From positions 682,001-746,000 of the forward strand of contig WIAF01000001.1 in assembly GCA_014055465.1 (NCBI GenBank): a DNA stretch of 64,000 bases, given 5' to 3'. The position numbers and the translations under genes are program-made. This document shows, in pieces, positions 3,570-16,870 of the stretch. How positions within the stretch are numbered: the first letter of the stretch is position 1; each line of letters begins with the position of its first letter. The notes under the pieces are model-generated. The model saw only the letters and a list, made by a program, of their open reading frames with translations, was not told the origin of the DNA and made no database searches. This DNA comes from Nitrospira sp. CR1.1 (GTDB lineage: Bacteria > Nitrospirota > Nitrospiria > Nitrospirales > Nitrospiraceae).

Positions 3570-4283
3570 CTACCGTATTGTCCTTACGAGAAAGCTGCCC
3601 AGCTTGCGCAAGACCGGTTCCGGAATCTCATGGCCGCCCCGAAACGGCTGCCACTCGACCATCACGCCGGCTTGAACACATTCATCGCGCAACCGCTCGG
3701 CCATGCTGAACGGCAGGATCGGATCGTGCGTACCATGGCTTTGAAAAAGCGGCAACCCCTTCCGCTTCGTCAGCAGCGGCGCCCATTCTTGCCTGGCAAC
3801 CAGCGTGCTCGACAGCTGGACAAGCCCGGCGTACGGCTGCGTACTATGCAGCAACGCATCACAGGACAACATCGCGCCTTGCGAAAAGCCTCCCAGCACG
3901 GTCCGGGCTGGATCAGCCCCGAGTATCTTGTGCACATCCCCCAACAAGGCCTTCACACGCTCACGCGCTTCCAGCAATCCTCGCGGGATTTCGCCGGACA
4001 GATCCCGGGCCTTCCCCGCCGCCCGATCGGCCTGGATGCGGGCCATGTCAATCATCCACCAGGCGCGGGAATCCCCGAAGCCCATGGGGATCTGAATCGG
4101 CGCTTCAGGAAACAGATACCGTGTGCCTGCAGGCGCGTCCAGATATTCGCTGAGCGGCACAAGGTCGTCCCCCGGCGCGCCGAATCCATGGAGCAGCAAC
4201 ACCCACGGACCATTGCCGCCGCCCTTGCCGTCGGTCCCGCCGGTCAGGCGAACCGTGAGGCCGCCGAGTTTTTCAAAACGCAT
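3570..4283 (-). CDS. Phospholipase/carboxylesterase-family alpha/beta hydrolase (YpfH-like)
   Basis: A 237-residue serine esterase. It has the early HGFGAPGDDL oxyanion motif, the nucleophile motif GGFSQGAM, the Asp of HGTHDPILP and the His of GGHEIP. The size and motif order fit the PF02230 phospholipase/carboxylesterase group. No export signal. It is the first gene of the minus-strand operon of hydrolase, hydrolase, small Cys-rich protein and HugZ-like protein. GGAGC precedes the ATG. Confidence 0.85.
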   Translation of the reverse strand: MRFEKLGGLTVRLTGGTDGKGGGNGPWVLLLHGFGAPGDDLVPLSEYLDAPAGTRYLFPEAPIQIPMGFGDSRAWWMIDMARIQADRAAGKARDLSGEIPRGLLEARERVKALLGDVHKILGADPARTVLGGFSQGAMLSCDALLHSTQPYAGLVQLSSTLVARQEWAPLLTKRKGLPLFQSHGTHDPILPFSMAERLRDECVQAGVMVEWQPFRGGHEIPEPVLRKLGSFLVRTIR

Positions 4284-9390: not shown

Positions 9391-9765
9391 TTACCGGAAA
9401 TTGGCTTCCAGATCGGATTCCAGGGTGAAGACGAAAATGCGCTCGCCGACCACGGTATCAATGTCGGTGAACAGCGCCGTGATCCTCGCGCCGATCAGAT
9501 CTGCCACCTGTTCACAGAGGCGTTCGCGGCCCTGGGCGATGAGGTTTTGACGCAGCCGCTTCACCATATCGATGCCTTCGGCCGTTTTGGCCAGTTGCCG
9601 CTCCGCCGGCGTGAGCACCCCTTTCAGTCGCACCACCAGCATGTCGCGCACAATGAACACGCGGACCTCGTCCGGGCCGCGGCCCAGAAATTCCTGTTCG
9701 AATTTGATGATCGCCGTGCGAACGGCGGCTTCCTTTTCTCCTTTGCTGGGCACAGGCACGGTCAT
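9391..9765 (-). CDS. DUF2294 domain protein
   Basis: 124 residues. The start at 9765 (Met-Thr-Val-Pro) has AGGGAG five bases upstream; longer in-frame starts at 9789 and 9942 have no comparable site. The conserved pattern KFEQEFLGRGPDEVRVFIV, the central RLKGVLTPAE and the end TDIDTVVGERIFVFTLE fit DUF2294, whose biochemical role is unknown. It is transcribed away from the inorganic-carbon operon and shares the intergenic control region with it, so a link to carbon uptake is possible but only inferred. Confidence 0.75.
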   Translation of the reverse strand: MTVPVPSKGEKEAAVRTAIIKFEQEFLGRGPDEVRVFIVRDMLVVRLKGVLTPAERQLAKTAEGIDMVKRLRQNLIAQGRERLCEQVADLIGARITALFTDIDTVVGERIFVFTLESDLEANFR

Positions 9766-9799
9766 CTTGCTCCCTGATGATACAGACATGGACGACCGG

Positions 9800-9843: not shown

Positions 9844-10156
9844 GTGCCGAAACCCGGCAACCCCGGTTCGCGAGTGAGCTTCGCGCGCTTGTTCGTCAGC
9901 CCGAACGCCCGGACTTTTCGCTTGCAATTTCGTGGGTTCCACAGATACATCTTACCCAGTTTTTCGGTGGTGCCGACGACAGGCCGTGATCGTGCGCGGC
10001 CCGGACCCACTCCATTGATGTCATCAGACAGGCAGTAGGGTCTTGCCGGTGTTTCCTTCCAGGGAAAAGCCGGGGACAGTGCAGGCCAGTCGTTGGTTCC
10101 TTGTTTCAAGGACCGTCGGCTGGCCTTTTTCTTTTCATGGCCAGCATGGGGTTCGC
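9844..10156 (+). promoter_or_regulatory. Leader of the DAB operon with mutually exclusive hairpins (candidate attenuator or riboswitch)
   Basis: No gene is visible between 9766 and 10156. On the plus strand the last 110 bases before dabB can form three competing helices. P1 pairs CCGG-TTTCC (10046-10056) with GGAAA-CCGG (10063-10073). An antiterminator pairs CAGGGAA (10060-10066) with TTCCTTG (10097-10103). An intrinsic terminator (10084-10136) uses that same TTCCTTG in its own stem. Since no plus-strand gene lies upstream, the terminator can only act on transcripts started in this leader. A possible start signal is TTGCAA (9922) with TACATC (9946), weak. I do not recognise a named riboswitch class. 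Confidence 0.5.
10084..10136 (+). terminator. Rho-independent terminator inside the DAB leader
   Basis: The outer stem GGCCAG (10084) pairs with CTGGCC (10120-10125). The inner stem GGT-CCTTG (10095-10103) pairs with CAAGGACC (10107-10114) across a TTT loop. A T-rich tail follows directly (10126-10136). It ends 20 bases before the dabB start, so transcription must read through it for the operon to be expressed. Confidence 0.75.
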
Positions 10157-11851
10157 ATGTCCTTTTTAGCCATCGTCCCGCTGTTGCCGTTACTCACGGC
10201 CTTCATCGTGATGACCGGCGATCGAGCGGACCAGGAACAGAACGCCCGATCCGGCCTCTTCCCGATCGCGGCGTCCTTCCTCGGCTCCCTCATCATTCTG
10301 GTCATGGTGACTTCGGAAGGCCCGATCATGTTCCAATTGTATGATCCGGCCGCCATTGCCAATCTCGCCTTCCCGATCGGCGTCTACATCGACCGGCTCA
10401 GCGCCGTCATGATGGTCCTGATCACGGGTGTGACCACCCTCATCTACCGGTATTCGATGGGCTACCTATATCAGGACCGCGGGTATCGCCGGTATCTGGG
10501 CATGCTTGGCATCACGACGACCATCCTGCTCTGCATGGTCTCCAGCGCCAATCTGGTGATGCTGTTCATTTTCTGGCAGATTCTCTCTTGGCTGTTGTTT
10601 CTCTTGGCGCACAATCACGGGCACGCGGCAACGCTGTCCGGCGCGTCCAATACGTTTACGACCTTACGGCTCAGCGATGCCGCCTTCCTCGCGGGCATTG
10701 TCCTGGCCTATTCGCTGTACGGGACGTTCGAGTTTCAGACGCTGTTCACACGCGCCGCGGAGACGCCGGTGACCTTGTCGATCTGGCCGGCGCTCGGTTG
10801 GGACATGAACGGCGTCACCGCGGTGACCCTGCTCATTTTCGGCGGCGCAATGGGAAAATCGGCACAATTCCCGATCCACACCTGGCTTCCGCGATCGCTG
10901 TACGCGCCGACCCCGATCCATGCGCTGCTGCATGCCGGGATCATCAACGCCGGAGGGTTCCTGCTGAACCGGCTCGCCCCGTTATACGGCCTGAGCCCGA
11001 CGACACTGCATGTCGTCTTCGTCATCGGCATGCTCACGGCGATCCTCGGCGCCACCATGATGCTGACGCAGAACGACATCAAGAAGACCCTGGGGTTTTC
11101 CACTATCGGGCAGATGGGCTACATGATCATGGAGTGCGGGCTCGGCGCGTTTTCCCTCGCCGTCTTCCATCTCATCGCGCACGGCCTGTTCAAGGGGACG
11201 GTGTTCCTGAACTGCGGCAACGTGATCCATAAGGCCCGCCAGGAACCTTCGTTCCCGCCGGTCGACCGCGAGACGGAAGAACGCGAATTCTCCAACCTGA
11301 CCTGGTCCACCGGGTTTTTGACGACCTTGCTGCTGCCCTTGGTCATTCTATTGGTCACACACGGCGTGCTGCGCATTCCGTTGCTCGAATCACAAGGCAC
11401 GGTGATCTTCCTGTTCTTCATCTGGGTCACCTCTTCGCAGGCCATCCTCTCGTTGACGCGCATTCGCGCGGTGGCCTCCTGGAAGGTGTCCGCCGCCATG
11501 CTGGTGACGCTGGTCATCGTCGTCTTCACCTATCTCTTCGCAGTCGAAAGCTTCACCCATTTTCTGTACCCGCATCCTGAAGAGGTGGCCTCATACTTCA
11601 AGGCCGCCGCGCTGCCGGGACGGCTGTTCGACAGTCTGGTCATCGGCACGACGTTGTTGACGATTCTGAGTTGGGTCTATTTGTATGCCCATGCCCACGG
11701 ACGCACCATCACCATTCCCGGGTGGATCGAGGCCTTCCTCGTGCGCCTGTATGTCTTGTTCATGAACCGGCTCTACCTGGATCAGCTCTATCTCAACATC
11801 GGCCGCGTCGTGACACAGGTCGCGCATCACCTGGAGAAACGGCTCTCGTGA
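10157..11851 (+). CDS. dabB: DabB-type proton-conducting membrane subunit (NuoL/MrpA family)
   Basis: 564 residues from the ATG at 10157 (MSFLAIVP); the frame is open further upstream, but that part lies in the leader and terminator. A polytopic protein with the antiporter core: GAMGKSAQFPIHTWLP (Lys and His of the proton path), HALLHAGIINAGGF, and STIGQMGYMIMECGLGAF. In DAB systems the NuoL-like subunit energises DabA with the proton-motive force, moving CO2 towards bicarbonate in the cytoplasm. No complex I genes surround it, and DabA follows two genes later, so a DAB role is far more likely than respiration. The first gene of a four-gene operon. Confidence 0.88.
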   Translation: MSFLAIVPLLPLLTAFIVMTGDRADQEQNARSGLFPIAASFLGSLIILVMVTSEGPIMFQLYDPAAIANLAFPIGVYIDRLSAVMMVLITGVTTLIYRYSMGYLYQDRGYRRYLGMLGITTTILLCMVSSANLVMLFIFWQILSWLLFLLAHNHGHAATLSGASNTFTTLRLSDAAFLAGIVLAYSLYGTFEFQTLFTRAAETPVTLSIWPALGWDMNGVTAVTLLIFGGAMGKSAQFPIHTWLPRSLYAPTPIHALLHAGIINAGGFLLNRLAPLYGLSPTTLHVVFVIGMLTAILGATMMLTQNDIKKTLGFSTIGQMGYMIMECGLGAFSLAVFHLIAHGLFKGTVFLNCGNVIHKARQEPSFPPVDRETEEREFSNLTWSTGFLTTLLLPLVILLVTHGVLRIPLLESQGTVIFLFFIWVTSSQAILSLTRIRAVASWKVSAAMLVTLVIVVFTYLFAVESFTHFLYPHPEEVASYFKAAALPGRLFDSLVIGTTLLTILSWVYLYAHAHGRTITIPGWIEAFLVRLYVLFMNRLYLDQLYLNIGRVVTQVAHHLEKRLS

Positions 11852-11909: not shown

Positions 11910-13217
11910 GTGACAGCAGCCTGGATGACACCCTGGCTCCTTCTGGCCATTCCTGTGTTGGGCGCGAGCCTCGGCCTGCTGATGAGGGCCTCCCTCCAGC
12001 GGATGAAAACGGCAGCCCTGATGACGACGGGAGCGAGCCTGCTCTCCGTCATGGGCACATCTCTCGTGCAGAGTGAACCGGCGGCGGCGATGTCCTGGCT
12101 GTGTCTGCTTCCGGCCACAGCGTTCCTCACGCTGCTCGGGCAGCCGCTGCACCGGGATCACAGTTCAGCCTGGCTCATGACCCTGATCCTGCTCGGTGTG
12201 GCGCTGGGCATGCTCACGAGTCACGCGGCCCCGCACGACCTCTTGCTTGTCCTGTTCCTCGGTATCCTCTGCGGCTTACTCTATCGTCATCAACCGGCCT
12301 CCGCCCCGGCGACGTGGCGAGGCCTGTCCTCGTTCGGTCTGGGCATCATCTCCACCCTGATGGCGTTCGTGCTGCCGACCCCGGCTTCGACGATCGCGTC
12401 GCTGGTCACCTGCGCGACGCTTCTGCCTCTGTTGCCCCTGCACAGCGGATTCGTGGCGGCACTGAGCGGATTGCCGGGCAATCTTCCCGCATTCCTGGCC
12501 CTGTTACTGCCAACGGTCGGATTCCATACTCTGTATCTGCTGCTCCCATCTCTCTCGACGACGGCGCTCCACACGGTGGCCATTCTGGCGCTGGCGGGCG
12601 CCCTGTATGGTTCGCTGCGGGCCTTGATTCAGCCGCATCCGCTGCCTCGACTCGGCTATGCCGCGTTGGCCTTCTTTTGTATGCTCTGGTGGTACATTGC
12701 CGACACGGGAACCGCGCCGGTCCAAGCCATGGTCTATCTCAGCGCCGTGGGACTCACCACCAGCGGACTCCTGATGGCCTGGTACGCCATCCGCGCGCGG
12801 TATGGGGACATCGATTTCCGGGCACTCGGCGGCCTCGCCTATCCCATGCCCCGTTTCAGCACCTTGCTGGCGCTGCTGGCGCTTGCCGCTCTGGGCATGC
12901 CGCCGTTCGGCGTGTTTTCCGGCTTCTTGGGAATGTTCCTCACGCCCGCATTTACGCCGTCCGGACCGTTCGCCGTTATCATGCTCGTCTGGCTCACCGC
13001 GTCCTGGTACTACACCGATCTCATTCAACAGGTCGTGTTCGGCCAGCCGCGCCTGGACGTGCGGCACGAGGATTTGCGGCACACGGAATTTGTCTCCCTG
13101 CTCCTGCTGTTGCTGTTGCTCCTGATCCTGGGGACGGCCCCGTCCCGGCTGTTCGAGTCTCCTGCGGCCAGTCCTCCGGCTGCCGTCGCCATGAAAGGTG
13201 CGTCATGGACCCGATGA
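11910..13217 (+). CDS. Second proton-channel-like membrane subunit of the DAB operon (NuoM/NuoN-like)
   Basis: 435 residues beginning with GTG (11910); an ATG 15 bases later is an alternative. Almost entirely hydrophobic, with roughly a dozen membrane segments and a poly-Leu stretch near the end. The motif region TLLALLALAALGMPPFGVFSGFLGM (in parts) is the conserved hydrophobic end of NuoM/N-type antiporter subunits, but the Lys/His signature of DabB is less evident, so it may be a degenerate partner. It lies between dabB and dabA and overlaps dabA by 13 bases. The best-studied DAB complexes have one membrane subunit; this operon has two. Confidence 0.8.
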   Translation: MTAAWMTPWLLLAIPVLGASLGLLMRASLQRMKTAALMTTGASLLSVMGTSLVQSEPAAAMSWLCLLPATAFLTLLGQPLHRDHSSAWLMTLILLGVALGMLTSHAAPHDLLLVLFLGILCGLLYRHQPASAPATWRGLSSFGLGIISTLMAFVLPTPASTIASLVTCATLLPLLPLHSGFVAALSGLPGNLPAFLALLLPTVGFHTLYLLLPSLSTTALHTVAILALAGALYGSLRALIQPHPLPRLGYAALAFFCMLWWYIADTGTAPVQAMVYLSAVGLTTSGLLMAWYAIRARYGDIDFRALGGLAYPMPRFSTLLALLALAALGMPPFGVFSGFLGMFLTPAFTPSGPFAVIMLVWLTASWYYTDLIQQVVFGQPRLDVRHEDLRHTEFVSLLLLLLLLLILGTAPSRLFESPAASPPAAVAMKGASWTR

Positions 13218-16200
13218 TGCGCCCCGGCGACTCGACCGATCTCGAAACCCGCCGCATGGAATTGCGGGGCATGATTCGGCTCGCCAGCGAAGTCATCGCG
13301 CAGTATTGGCCCATGCGAACCTTCGTGCACCACAATCCCCTGCACAGCCTCGAGTATCTGCCGTTTACCGAGACGGTCCGCCGCGGCCAGCAGTTCTTGG
13401 GAGGGAATGGATATCTTCCCGGCGACCTGTATCGGCGATACGTCAAGACCGGTCGGATTCTGGTCCGCCACATCGATGACGCGTTGGCGTTGCTCGCGAA
13501 GGATGAAGAAGTCGACCTGGGCTCCTGCCGCATTTCACGGCGTGAGGTCATGCGTGCCTGCCTGACCCATGGCCTGTCCCGGACGGCCGAGGAACCGATT
13601 GACCGGCTCATGGAACGTGAACCGAACGAGGAACAGGTGGACGTCCTGGCCGAACGCCTGGTCGCCTTTGCCATGCCAACCGTGCAGGAACAGATGGCCG
13701 CGACGGTTCGCGACGATGTAGCCGCGTTAGGACGGGACCTCACCTTATCGACCTGGTGCGACCGGACAGTGGGCGCCAGGATCGGTGATCAGATCAACAG
13801 CGAACTGATCAAATGGTGCGAAGCCTTTCTGGACGAAGGCCACGCCACCTGGTCGATGCCGGGACGACGCCAGGGGTTGTATGCAGCCTGGAAGCAGGTG
13901 GCCGCCAATGAATGGACGACCTGCGGCATTGCCGACAGCCGCCGCAAAATTGCGGCGCTGCCCGAACATCCGGAAGACGTGGTCCTGGATTGTCTCGAGG
14001 CCTTGGCAATTCCCGCAGAGTTCCGGCAGGACTATCTCGGCCTTCAGCTGGCAGCGCTTCCCGGTTGGACGGGCTTCATCAAATGGAGGGCCGAAGAAAA
14101 CGACTATGCCTGGCAGCAGGCGTACCCCGTCGGCCTGGTGAAATTTCTCGCCGTGCGTCTCTGGTATGTGCGCGAACTCGTCGAGAAAGTGTGCCGGGAG
14201 GAATTGGGCATCGAGGGAAACTATCGCGCGGTGTTGCGATTTATGGACCAGCAGCCTTCCGCGTATTTCATGCGGAAGGAATGGGTCGCCGGCCGCCTGC
14301 CGGCTCCCTATGCCGACCGGGTCGCGCGCCTGCATGCGCAATTGGCTGATCAACAGAACAGGGCCACTCAGTCCCGCGCATGGGAGCGACTGACCCACCA
14401 CTATCAGATAGACTTCGGCCCGCGCCGGGAACGGGCCGCGCAGCGGGCGATGGCCCGACGCCTGCTCGCGCTCGCCCAAGCGCTTGAGATCGTGCCGACC
14501 CTGCTGATGGACGCGCCACCGGCCCCCCTTCGCCAGCTTCTGGACTGGATGGCCGCGTTTCCCGAATCGGCGCATGGCCCGGTCTGGCTGAAAGCGTTTG
14601 AGGCGGGCTATCAGGAGCATCTGTTCGGCATGCTGCGGCGCGCGCCGACCAAACCGCAACCCGCGGCGCCCGACGGTCAACCGCCAGTCCGCCCCCATTC
14701 GCAATCGGTCTTTTGCATCGATGTGCGATCCGAGCCGTTCCGCCGTCATTTGGAATCGACGGGCGCCAACGAGACCTACGGCTTCGCGGGATTTTTCGCC
14801 GCCCTCATTCGATATCGCGCATGGGGCAAGGAGCATGAAACCGAACAGTTTCCGGTGATCATGCGCGCCAAGAACGAAGTCCGCGAAATCCCCCGCAGCT
14901 ACCTGGACCATTACGTGTCCAAACACCAGTCCCGGGCCAAACTGGTCCACGCCGGTCACACGCTGCTGCACGACTTGAAAGAAAACGTCGTCACACCGTA
15001 TGTGATGGTCGAATCGCTCGGCTGGTTTTACGTCCTTCCCATGATGGGCAAGACCTTCCTGCCGGCTCTGTACAAACGCCTGACCGGCTGGATCCGCCGG
15101 CTGTTTGTCCCGCCGATCGCCACTATTTTAACCGTCGACAAGCTGGCGCCGGCTGAAACCGAAGAAATGGTGGTCTCCGAACAACGCGCGCTGATCTGGA
15201 AAGCCCTGCGCGATCGGCTCGGCCTGCATGGCTCGCGAGTGGAGGCCGAATTTGTCGAAGCGCTGCGGCGGCGGGCCCTCGACGAGGATGCGCCCGTCGA
15301 ACCGTTCCTCAGCGAAGCCGCCCGGGCGGTCGATGTGTCGAGCGAACAATTGACCACCTTTTTGGACGAACTGCGTCGGCACTACCGGATCAACCGGCGC
15401 GCGGCGTCGCGCCAGAAAGAACGCATCACCCGCACCGGGTTTACCCTCGAGGAGCAGGTCCTGACCCTCGAAACGGCCTTGCGCATGATGGGCTTGGTGC
15501 GCAATTTTGCCCGGCTCGTGCTCTTCTGCGCGCACGGCAGCACGACGGAAAACAATCCGTTCGAGTCGGCGTTGGACTGCGGCGCCTGCGGCGGAAACGA
15601 AGGCAAACCGAATGCGCGGGTCCTGGCGGCCATGGCCAATCGCGCCCCGGTGCGCGAACGGCTGGCGAAACGCGGCATTATCATTCCGCCGGATACGCAC
15701 TTCCTTGCCGGACAGGTCGATACCACAACCGATGAGGTGCAGCTGTTCGATCTCGAAGACGCGCCCCCGACCCACCGTAAAGATGTGGCCCGCCTCTATG
15801 ATGATTTGCGGGAAGCGGCCCAGCTCACCAGCCAGGAGCGCTGTGCAAGATTTCCCGAGGTCGGCGCCGTCCTGCCCTTCGACAAGGCGTCGGGGCACGT
15901 GGCTGCGCGAAGCGCGGACTGGAGTCAGGTGCGGCCCGAATGGGGCCTGTCCGGCAACACCGCCTTCATCATCGGCCGGCGGGAGTTGACGAAGGGGCTG
16001 AATCTTTCCGGGCGCATTTTTCTGCAATCCTACGACCATCGGGAAGACCCGACGGATCGCTGGCTCGAAGTGCTCCTCACCGCCCCGCAAGTGGTGGCGC
16101 AATGGATCAACATGGAGCATTATTTCTCAGCGGTGGATAATGATGTGTACGGAAGCGGGAGCAAGATCTATCACAACGTCGTCGGCCGCGTCGGGATCAT

Positions 16201-16483
16201 GTCCGGCCCCTGGAGCGATCTTCGCCTCGGCCTGGCCTGGCAAACCGTCATGAACGGTGAGCTGCCCTACCATGAGCCGATGCGCTTGATGACGCTGGTG
16301 GAAGCCTCGCGCTCGCGGATCGAAAAACTTATCGCGCGGCATGAAATCCTGCAACATTTCTATCACAACGAGTGGGTCCATCTGGCCGCGTTGGACCCTG
16401 AGGACGGCACCTGGTACCGCTACATGCCGTCCGGCGTATGGCGAAGGGTCCAGCATCCCAGCGAGACCTCACAGGCTGGGTAA
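13205..16483 (+). CDS. dabA: DabA, zinc-dependent inorganic carbon accumulation subunit (DUF2309/UPF0753)
   Basis: 1092 residues. DabA is a beta-carbonic-anhydrase-like protein that, with DabB, drives one-way CO2 hydration. The zinc and catalytic residues are recognisable: Cys504 and Asp506 in VFCIDVRSE, His777 in CAHGSTTENN and Cys792 in LDCGACGG. The 15-residue spacing of the last two equals that of the characterised enzyme. The start at 13205 overlaps the previous gene and has AAAGGTG upstream; the open frame runs back to 12101 only because of high GC. N-terminal motif TFVHHNPLHSLEYLPF is typical. It is soluble and would sit on the inner membrane with its partners. Confidence 0.95.
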   Translation: MDPMMRPGDSTDLETRRMELRGMIRLASEVIAQYWPMRTFVHHNPLHSLEYLPFTETVRRGQQFLGGNGYLPGDLYRRYVKTGRILVRHIDDALALLAKDEEVDLGSCRISRREVMRACLTHGLSRTAEEPIDRLMEREPNEEQVDVLAERLVAFAMPTVQEQMAATVRDDVAALGRDLTLSTWCDRTVGARIGDQINSELIKWCEAFLDEGHATWSMPGRRQGLYAAWKQVAANEWTTCGIADSRRKIAALPEHPEDVVLDCLEALAIPAEFRQDYLGLQLAALPGWTGFIKWRAEENDYAWQQAYPVGLVKFLAVRLWYVRELVEKVCREELGIEGNYRAVLRFMDQQPSAYFMRKEWVAGRLPAPYADRVARLHAQLADQQNRATQSRAWERLTHHYQIDFGPRRERAAQRAMARRLLALAQALEIVPTLLMDAPPAPLRQLLDWMAAFPESAHGPVWLKAFEAGYQEHLFGMLRRAPTKPQPAAPDGQPPVRPHSQSVFCIDVRSEPFRRHLESTGANETYGFAGFFAALIRYRAWGKEHETEQFPVIMRAKNEVREIPRSYLDHYVSKHQSRAKLVHAGHTLLHDLKENVVTPYVMVESLGWFYVLPMMGKTFLPALYKRLTGWIRRLFVPPIATILTVDKLAPAETEEMVVSEQRALIWKALRDRLGLHGSRVEAEFVEALRRRALDEDAPVEPFLSEAARAVDVSSEQLTTFLDELRRHYRINRRAASRQKERITRTGFTLEEQVLTLETALRMMGLVRNFARLVLFCAHGSTTENNPFESALDCGACGGNEGKPNARVLAAMANRAPVRERLAKRGIIIPPDTHFLAGQVDTTTDEVQLFDLEDAPPTHRKDVARLYDDLREAAQLTSQERCARFPEVGAVLPFDKASGHVAARSADWSQVRPEWGLSGNTAFIIGRRELTKGLNLSGRIFLQSYDHREDPTDRWLEVLLTAPQVVAQWINMEHYFSAVDNDVYGSGSKIYHNVVGRVGIMSGPWSDLRLGLAWQTVMNGELPYHEPMRLMTLVEASRSRIEKLIARHEILQHFYHNEWVHLAALDPEDGTWYRYMPSGVWRRVQHPSETSQAG

Positions 16484-16528: not shown

Positions 16529-16870
16529 ATGGCCGCACTCACGTTGCATCCCATGAAAGAAATCCGCGTCATCGTGTCCGGAGAACACCGGCCGTTCGTG
16601 ACGGAATTGTTGGACAAGGTCGAGGCGACCGGGTACACGATCATCGGCAACATCTCCGGGAAAGGGCACCATGGCGTCCGCGAAGCGCACTTCATGTTCA
16701 GCGAGCAGGAAAGCCTGGTGATGATCATGGCGGTGGTGCCGGAAGAAAAGGTGGAACCGGTATTGGCCGGATTACGCCCGTTGTTCGACCGCCACTCAGG
16801 GGTCATGTTCGTGTCTGATGTGTCCGTCAGCCGGCGTGACTATTTCGGAAAGAAGAGCGCCAAACCCTGA
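16529..16870 (+). CDS. P-II-like signalling protein of the DAB operon
   Basis: 113 residues with the ferredoxin-like P-II fold pattern: two beta-alpha-beta units (MKEIRVIVSGEHRPFVTELL and EEKVEPVLAGLRPLF, in parts) joined by a loop with GKGHHGVREAHFMF where P-II proteins carry the T-loop. It lacks the canonical Tyr uridylylation site, so it belongs with the P-II-like proteins found next to carbon transporters (SbtB-like group) rather than GlnB. Ligand (nucleotide, bicarbonate) unknown. It follows dabA by 45 bases, preceded by AAAGGAG, and probably regulates the complex. Confidence 0.8.
   Translation: MAALTLHPMKEIRVIVSGEHRPFVTELLDKVEATGYTIIGNISGKGHHGVREAHFMFSEQESLVMIMAVVPEEKVEPVLAGLRPLFDRHSGVMFVSDVSVSRRDYFGKKSAKP

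Follow-up and report, generated by a model that had tools for sequence, protein, structure and literature searches.

The window analysed here, a 64,000-nucleotide stretch of the Nitrospira sp. CR1.1 genome, carries on its plus strand an operon for the DAB inorganic-carbon uptake complex, preceded by a leader that forms the subject of this study. The operon opens with dabB, encoding the NuoL-like subunit (10157–11851; PF00361 and PF00662), and continues with an open reading frame for a second, NuoM-like membrane subunit of 435 aa (11910–13217; NuoM-type NCBIfam matches lie below cut-off) and dabA (DUF2309; 13205–16483; PF10070, E = 1.5e-261). It ends with a gene for a PII-like protein (16529–16870; PF00543, E = 6e-23), which is conserved with the dab operon in relatives (L048, L068, L081 and L102). 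On the minus strand, a divergent gene (9391–9777) encodes an MpsC family protein (PF10057), and similar proteins adjoin the leader in several other genera (L042–L045). Staphylococcus mpsC lies beside the DAB homologues mpsAB and is dispensable there (PMC6689103). A second DabB-like gene (G000:C3:58554–60203; 49% identity), present in nearly all genomes of the genus, is not accompanied by the leader RNA.

A conserved, structured RNA spans positions 9967–10136; the intrinsic terminator at its 3′ end lies 20 nt upstream of dabB. The terminator (10083–10136, plus strand) consists of a stem in which AGGCCAGTCG (10083–10092) pairs with CGGCTGGCCT (10117–10126), followed by a T-run. With the T-run finishing at 10136 and dabB starting at 10157, every transcript initiated upstream has to traverse the terminator. 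The nearest likely plus-strand gene 5′ of the leader, of the Ysc84 family, ends at 1757, in agreement with the initial annotation, which had seen none for more than 8 kb. Both hairpins drawn in that annotation also hold up: the terminator (10084–10136, 20 bases before dabB) folds with −28.8 kcal/mol, which none of 200 shuffled sequences equals (z = −7.5), and the hairpin at 10046–10073 with −13.8 kcal/mol (z = −3.0). The entire leader folds better than its shuffles (z = −4.5).

When genomes of the genus are compared, conservation rises sharply only from about 9912, just 5′ of a promoter-like element, and we therefore take the real unit to be about 9946–10136 rather than the 9844–10156 originally delimited. 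The element (9923–9951, plus strand) comprises TTGCAA (9923–9928), a 17 nt spacer and TACATC (9946–9951). It is near-invariant in 27 genomes of the genus, with variable flanks, and TTGACG...TATTAT occupies its position in other lineages. A generic sigma-70 scan of the upstream regions did not score above background or shuffled sequence, so it is only clade-specific conservation that marks the element as a putative promoter. Transcription would be expected to start near 9957–9960. A sigma-54 promoter was set aside by inspection (GG-N11-GC spacing, first G not conserved).

Searching the genus at the DNA level gave matches to the leader in 28 of 29 genomes, one of them spanning only 30 bases. It stands 5′ of dabB in 27 of the 29, even where the genes further upstream differ, and its identity within the genus is as high as that of the dabB coding region. 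An orthologue of dabB (at least 82% identity) is present in exactly these 27 RNA-bearing genomes; the two genomes without the leader before dabB also lack the orthologue. Loop lengths differ by 1–2 nt between sequences of the genus, which rules out a conserved reading frame. This bears on translation-coupled attenuation through a leader peptide: many of the genus sequences carry ATGAGACAGGCAG, opening a frame through the leader, but a conserved short frame is absent, the indels break the frame between species and the ATG is missing in the window, making this explanation next to impossible.

Beyond the genus, a covariance model built from the genus sequences recovered six relatives in other genera, and when about 85,000 species were scanned with a degenerate pattern, 59 loci emerged, of which 57 lie in Nitrospira-type records. 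The two pattern matches outside Nitrospirota, in Treponema (L049) and Chloroflexi (L058), lack both a terminator stem and a dab gene and were dismissed as chance. With a second covariance model, built from 62 diverse sequences, 138 of the 175 family genomes proved to carry the RNA. Applied to 396 genomes of the phylum, this model detected the RNA in 24 genomes from two other families of the order and found none outside this order of three families. A range of one order is narrower than that of most validated riboswitches.

The 5′ part of the RNA is a hairpin, P0 (9967–10010, plus strand), with an outer helix of GTGG (9967–9970) and CCAC (10007–10010), an inner helix of CCG (9973–9975) and CGG (10002–10004) and an apical part GGCCGTG...GCGCGGCC; the internal loop between outer and inner helix is UG/AC (also written UG/GA). 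The outer helix is compensated in relatives, where GTGG/CCAC becomes ATGGG/CCCAT or GATTG/CGATC, and the inner helix covaries in lineage II. A conserved core follows at 10035–10082 on the same strand. Here P1b pairs GUA (10035–10037) with UGC (10080–10082), a 2 × 2 internal loop (10038–10039 and 10078–10079) separates it from the P2 hairpin (10040–10077), and the whole is closed by P1a, whose 5′ strand GGC (10031–10033; in the genus GACAGGC, 10027–10033) pairs with GCC (10085–10087; in the genus GCCAGTC, 10085–10091).

Within the genus alone, one of 48 pairs covaries, the sequences being too conserved to inform until distant relatives are added. With 100 distinct sequences from across the three families and 24 modelled pairs, 95.4% of cells are paired and double changes occur in 18 of the 24 pairs, a level that none of 500 shuffles reaches; the other six pairs have none. 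Cells with double changes number 236, against 67.5 ± 8.4 in shuffles and 22–57 when the partner is slid. Covariation among homologous leaders, the check that the initial annotation had asked of a covariance model, is thus present. All eight pairs of P2 show both-sided changes (in 4–28 of the 100 sequences), as do seven of the ten pairs of the terminator stem among relatives, and a count made without alignment, using GTAGGG and CAGTRCA as anchors, agrees for both elements. P1b (GUA...URC) is nearly invariant. The 2 × 2 loop between P1b and P2 reads GG/AG in 92 of 102 cases and AG/AA in six, in which the opposed G·G is replaced by A·A, as would be expected of a structured loop. A variant RNA with the core GUARGGU / AAUACAAGCC and the AG/AA loop (L137, L139–L147 and L151–L153) stands before SulP or dabB genes, and may have shifted in ligand or affinity.

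The conserved exclusion in this RNA is that of the closing helix P1a (GGC 10031–10033 / GCC 10085–10087) and the terminator, whose 5′ arm includes the 3′ strand of P1a. A GGY placed 0–3 nt 5′ of GUA and able to pair with GCC is found in 91 of 95 distinct sequences; the same test on a control window located more 5′ was positive in 1 of 95. The longer form GACAGGC/GCCAGTC, with all six pairs in 26 of 27 sequences, was rejected as a universal helix, since it is confined to the genus, GGY/GCC being the universal portion; P1a is only 3 bp long in most lineages. The GCC strand is nearly invariant, as might be expected of a strand with two partners, and covariation of P1a consequently comes from wobble changes and one three-way case. 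In this case (L220), GCC has become ACC, and both the P1a partner and the 3′ arm of the terminator have changed from GGC to GGU, a three-way compensatory change.

Nascent folding of the window sequence gave P1a a probability of 0.98–1.00 at 3′ ends 10087–10122 and 0.00 at 10126, where that of the terminator was 1.00. The terminator thus takes over once 10123–10126 have been transcribed, and its state is favoured by 8.4 kcal/mol. Across the diverse set, 57 of 61 nascent RNAs likewise form P1a. The initial annotation had placed the switch elsewhere, with CAGGGAA (10060–10066) toggling between the 10046–10073 hairpin and the TTCCTTG (10097–10103) of the terminator. These three segments are indeed mutually complementary in the window, but all seven CAGGGAA/TTCCTTG pairs are present in only 12 of the 27 genus sequences, with no compensation, the segment 10055–10110 in isolation folds at chance level (z = −0.7), and in other lineages the apical portions of both P2 and the terminator bear no relation to those seen here. 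Such a toggle is hardly credible. The general idea of an attenuator or riboswitch with exclusive hairpins survives in the covariation and in the closing helix that overlaps the terminator; the exact hairpin logic was wrong.

A leader that merely terminates, with constant partial readthrough and no signal, or that serves as the source of a stand-alone small RNA, is a further alternative, as a promoter-like element and a terminator belonging to one RNA of 180 nt have the look of a small RNA gene. A constant terminator, however, needs no overlap, whereas the 5′ arm here takes part in a second conserved helix as well. The RNA moreover lies nearly always directly before inorganic-carbon genes across many syntenies, and we consider a signal-free leader very unlikely.

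Within the family, 102 matches (a tally that counts some loci twice) comprise 88 before dabB, one before dabA and ten before a SulP transporter, one of the ten (L174) being a second, divergent SulP type. The remaining matches precede a CsoSCA-like carbonic anhydrase (L181; PF20686, E = 3e-5), an LCIB-type 'limiting CO2-inducible' carbonic anhydrase (L186; PF18599, E = 6e-53; PDB 5k5w, E = 6e-44) and a 797-aa protein. The last, without a Pfam match, follows one RNA copy (443–620) at L136, where a second copy (3764–3943) precedes dabB, which suggests a carbon-related protein. The SulP proteins match the BicA model with E = 2e-36, below the model's cut-off; among solved structures their closest relative is PDB 6ki1, known as BicA, and a BicA-like substrate is likely, if not certain. 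The two sister families contribute 35 matches, before SulP (10), dabA (10), dabB (1), mnhE-led Mrp antiporter operons (13) and an unrelated gene (1). This last match (L214, 843–1005) is weak, at 28 bits, lies about 380 nt before a CDP-alcohol phosphatidyltransferase gene and is probably a chance match or a degenerate copy. Genomes G146 and G398 each have three RNA copies per cluster, ahead of SulP, dabA and Mrp units in turn (L213: 1948–2123, 4901–5081 and 8207–8379; L215: 972–1157, 8182–8251 and 12955–13139).

Judged by sequence, the downstream genes are thus nearly all inorganic-carbon genes of unrelated families. No dabB orthologue was detected, at the threshold used, in the genome carrying the CsoSCA-like case (G297), and that of the divergent SulP type (G213) is not among the genomes listed with one, so the association of RNA and gene is not merely inherited from dab. 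A ligand linked to carbon status, which had been offered as inference only, now has comparative support in the unrelated carbon genes behind homologous RNAs. The RNA might alternatively sense Na+, pH or another ion, to which Mrp antiporters and SulP transporters also answer; 13 of the 35 sister-family copies precede mnhE-led Mrp operons, and DabB itself is Mrp/Nuo-like. The LCIB-type and CsoSCA-like carbonic anhydrases, by contrast, have no obvious ion role, and the Rfam ion riboswitch families give no match, which leaves ion sensing unlikely.

We propose, with a probability of roughly 0.7, that the leader is an ON riboswitch of dabB-dabA that works by conditional termination and most likely reads inorganic-carbon status directly. 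The leader (about 9957–10136) would act in cis on dabB-dabA. During transcription the core would form, with P2 stacked through the GG/AG loop on P1b (GUA/URC) and closed by P1a (GGC/GCC), whose GCC strand doubles as part of the lower half of the terminator 5′ arm. A P1a that nothing supports would be displaced by the last four bases of the terminator 3′ arm, halting transcription 20 nt short of dabB. A ligand that stabilised the P1 region would instead keep the lower stem of the terminator, beside the U-run, from closing, and polymerase would read through into the operon. Such an architecture would be an ON switch of the direct-overlap type. It assumes ligand stabilisation of a P1a that is 3 bp long in most lineages. 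Computation establishes the conserved structure, its covariation, the mutual exclusion and the association with genes, and from these we infer the stabilisation (by a ligand or a protein), the ON polarity and the carbon-status signal.

The signal is most likely inorganic-carbon status because homologous RNAs precede unrelated inorganic-carbon genes; the Mrp operons would likewise be compatible with Na+ or pH. Uptake genes would be expected to be expressed under carbon scarcity, so a metabolite whose level goes up in that condition would suit an ON switch better than bicarbonate, which is itself an awkward ligand for an ON switch of uptake genes and would require reversed polarity or feed-forward. 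The organism uses the reductive TCA cycle, and candidate ligands are PEP, acetyl-CoA, pyruvate and succinyl-CoA. A dedicated RNA-binding protein, rather than a small molecule, might instead hold the P0/P1 core according to carbon status. The conserved part of the RNA is small, its two conserved internal loops (UG/GA in P0 and GG/AG in the core) could serve as protein sites, and the dab operon includes a PII-like gene. Yet no gene was identified that accompanies the RNA as a candidate partner, and we know of no PII-type protein that binds RNA, which also counts against a protein-controlled attenuator; we regard it as rather unlikely.

Our best reading is that the RNA represents a new class of transcription-attenuating cis-regulatory RNA for inorganic-carbon acquisition, probably an ON riboswitch. 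The wider proposal, on which we would lay about even odds, is that of a new riboswitch class that would read inorganic-carbon status directly, whether as bicarbonate/CO2 or as a metabolite that tracks it, and command unrelated carbon-uptake genes (DAB, SulP/BicA-like, carbonic anhydrases and Mrp) in Nitrospira-type nitrifiers. Sensing of CO2 or bicarbonate by autotrophs in gene control is known mainly through proteins. Most sampled genomes of the Nitrospiraceae, which are central to nitrification, carry this conserved RNA, and it stands before several unrelated inorganic-carbon uptake genes. Should it bind its signal directly, it would constitute a new riboswitch class and, to our knowledge, the first RNA sensor for inorganic carbon. 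It would then offer a way to approach carbon limitation in nitrifiers and, possibly, a genetically encoded carbon sensor, and the regulon yields a short list of ligands open to in vitro tests.

Comparison with known RNA classes bears out the initial annotation, which had recognised no named class. Searched against Rfam 15, the window gives no match at gathering score, and relaxing the limit to E = 10 adds nothing but a snoRNA match below threshold; relatives of the RNA give only sub-threshold matches located off the RNA. The NiCo riboswitch (RF02683) shares a short string likeness with the leader, CAGGCA...GGGACAGU, and was rejected, as the leader has no four-way junction and no Rfam match up to E = 10. 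A T-box leader is defined by a Stem I specifier loop, a T-box bulge in the antiterminator and an aminoacyl-tRNA-related gene; here there is only a short 5′ string likeness (GGTGGTGCCG), no Rfam match, and dabB as the downstream gene. 6S RNA (RF00013) resembles the leader in length, conservation and possession of its own terminator, and was discarded because the leader has no RF00013 match and candidates lie at other loci in genomes of the genus, G000 included. Such 6S matches occur in most of these genomes (G000:C5:145047–145211; G003, G004, G010, G018, G021, G022 and G025–G027), mostly just under the Rfam cut-off and twice in several genomes, hinting at divergent or duplicated 6S RNAs in the genus. 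Our literature search, which left out the 2017 survey of 224 motifs so that prior description is not fully excluded, found no RNA before dab genes and no bicarbonate riboswitch. The main text of three surveys (PMC11109978, PMC8632094 and PMC2864571) does not mention the leader RNA.

Like recognised riboswitches, the RNA has a covarying 5′ leader domain, an expression platform exclusive with an aptamer-like part, and an association with one pathway that includes non-homologous genes. The closest mechanistic parallels are the pbuE adenine, ZTP (pfl) and fluoride (crcB) riboswitches. There, as here, the helix that closes the aptamer has one strand in common with an intrinsic terminator and, as in our proposal, switching would proceed by strand displacement from a default OFF state. 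Direct-overlap transcriptional switches compared here are described in PMC7707468, PMC10085676 and PMC11077080. The leader differs from all three in having no sequence or Rfam relation to them, in the genes it precedes and in its core, GGY-N-GUAGGG-P2-CAGURCARGCC. With the orphan riboswitch candidates of the Breaker and Weinberg type it has in common conserved loops, covarying helices, terminator overlap, consistent gene association and no assigned ligand; it is set apart from them by its absence from Rfam 15 and by a regulon of inorganic-carbon genes.
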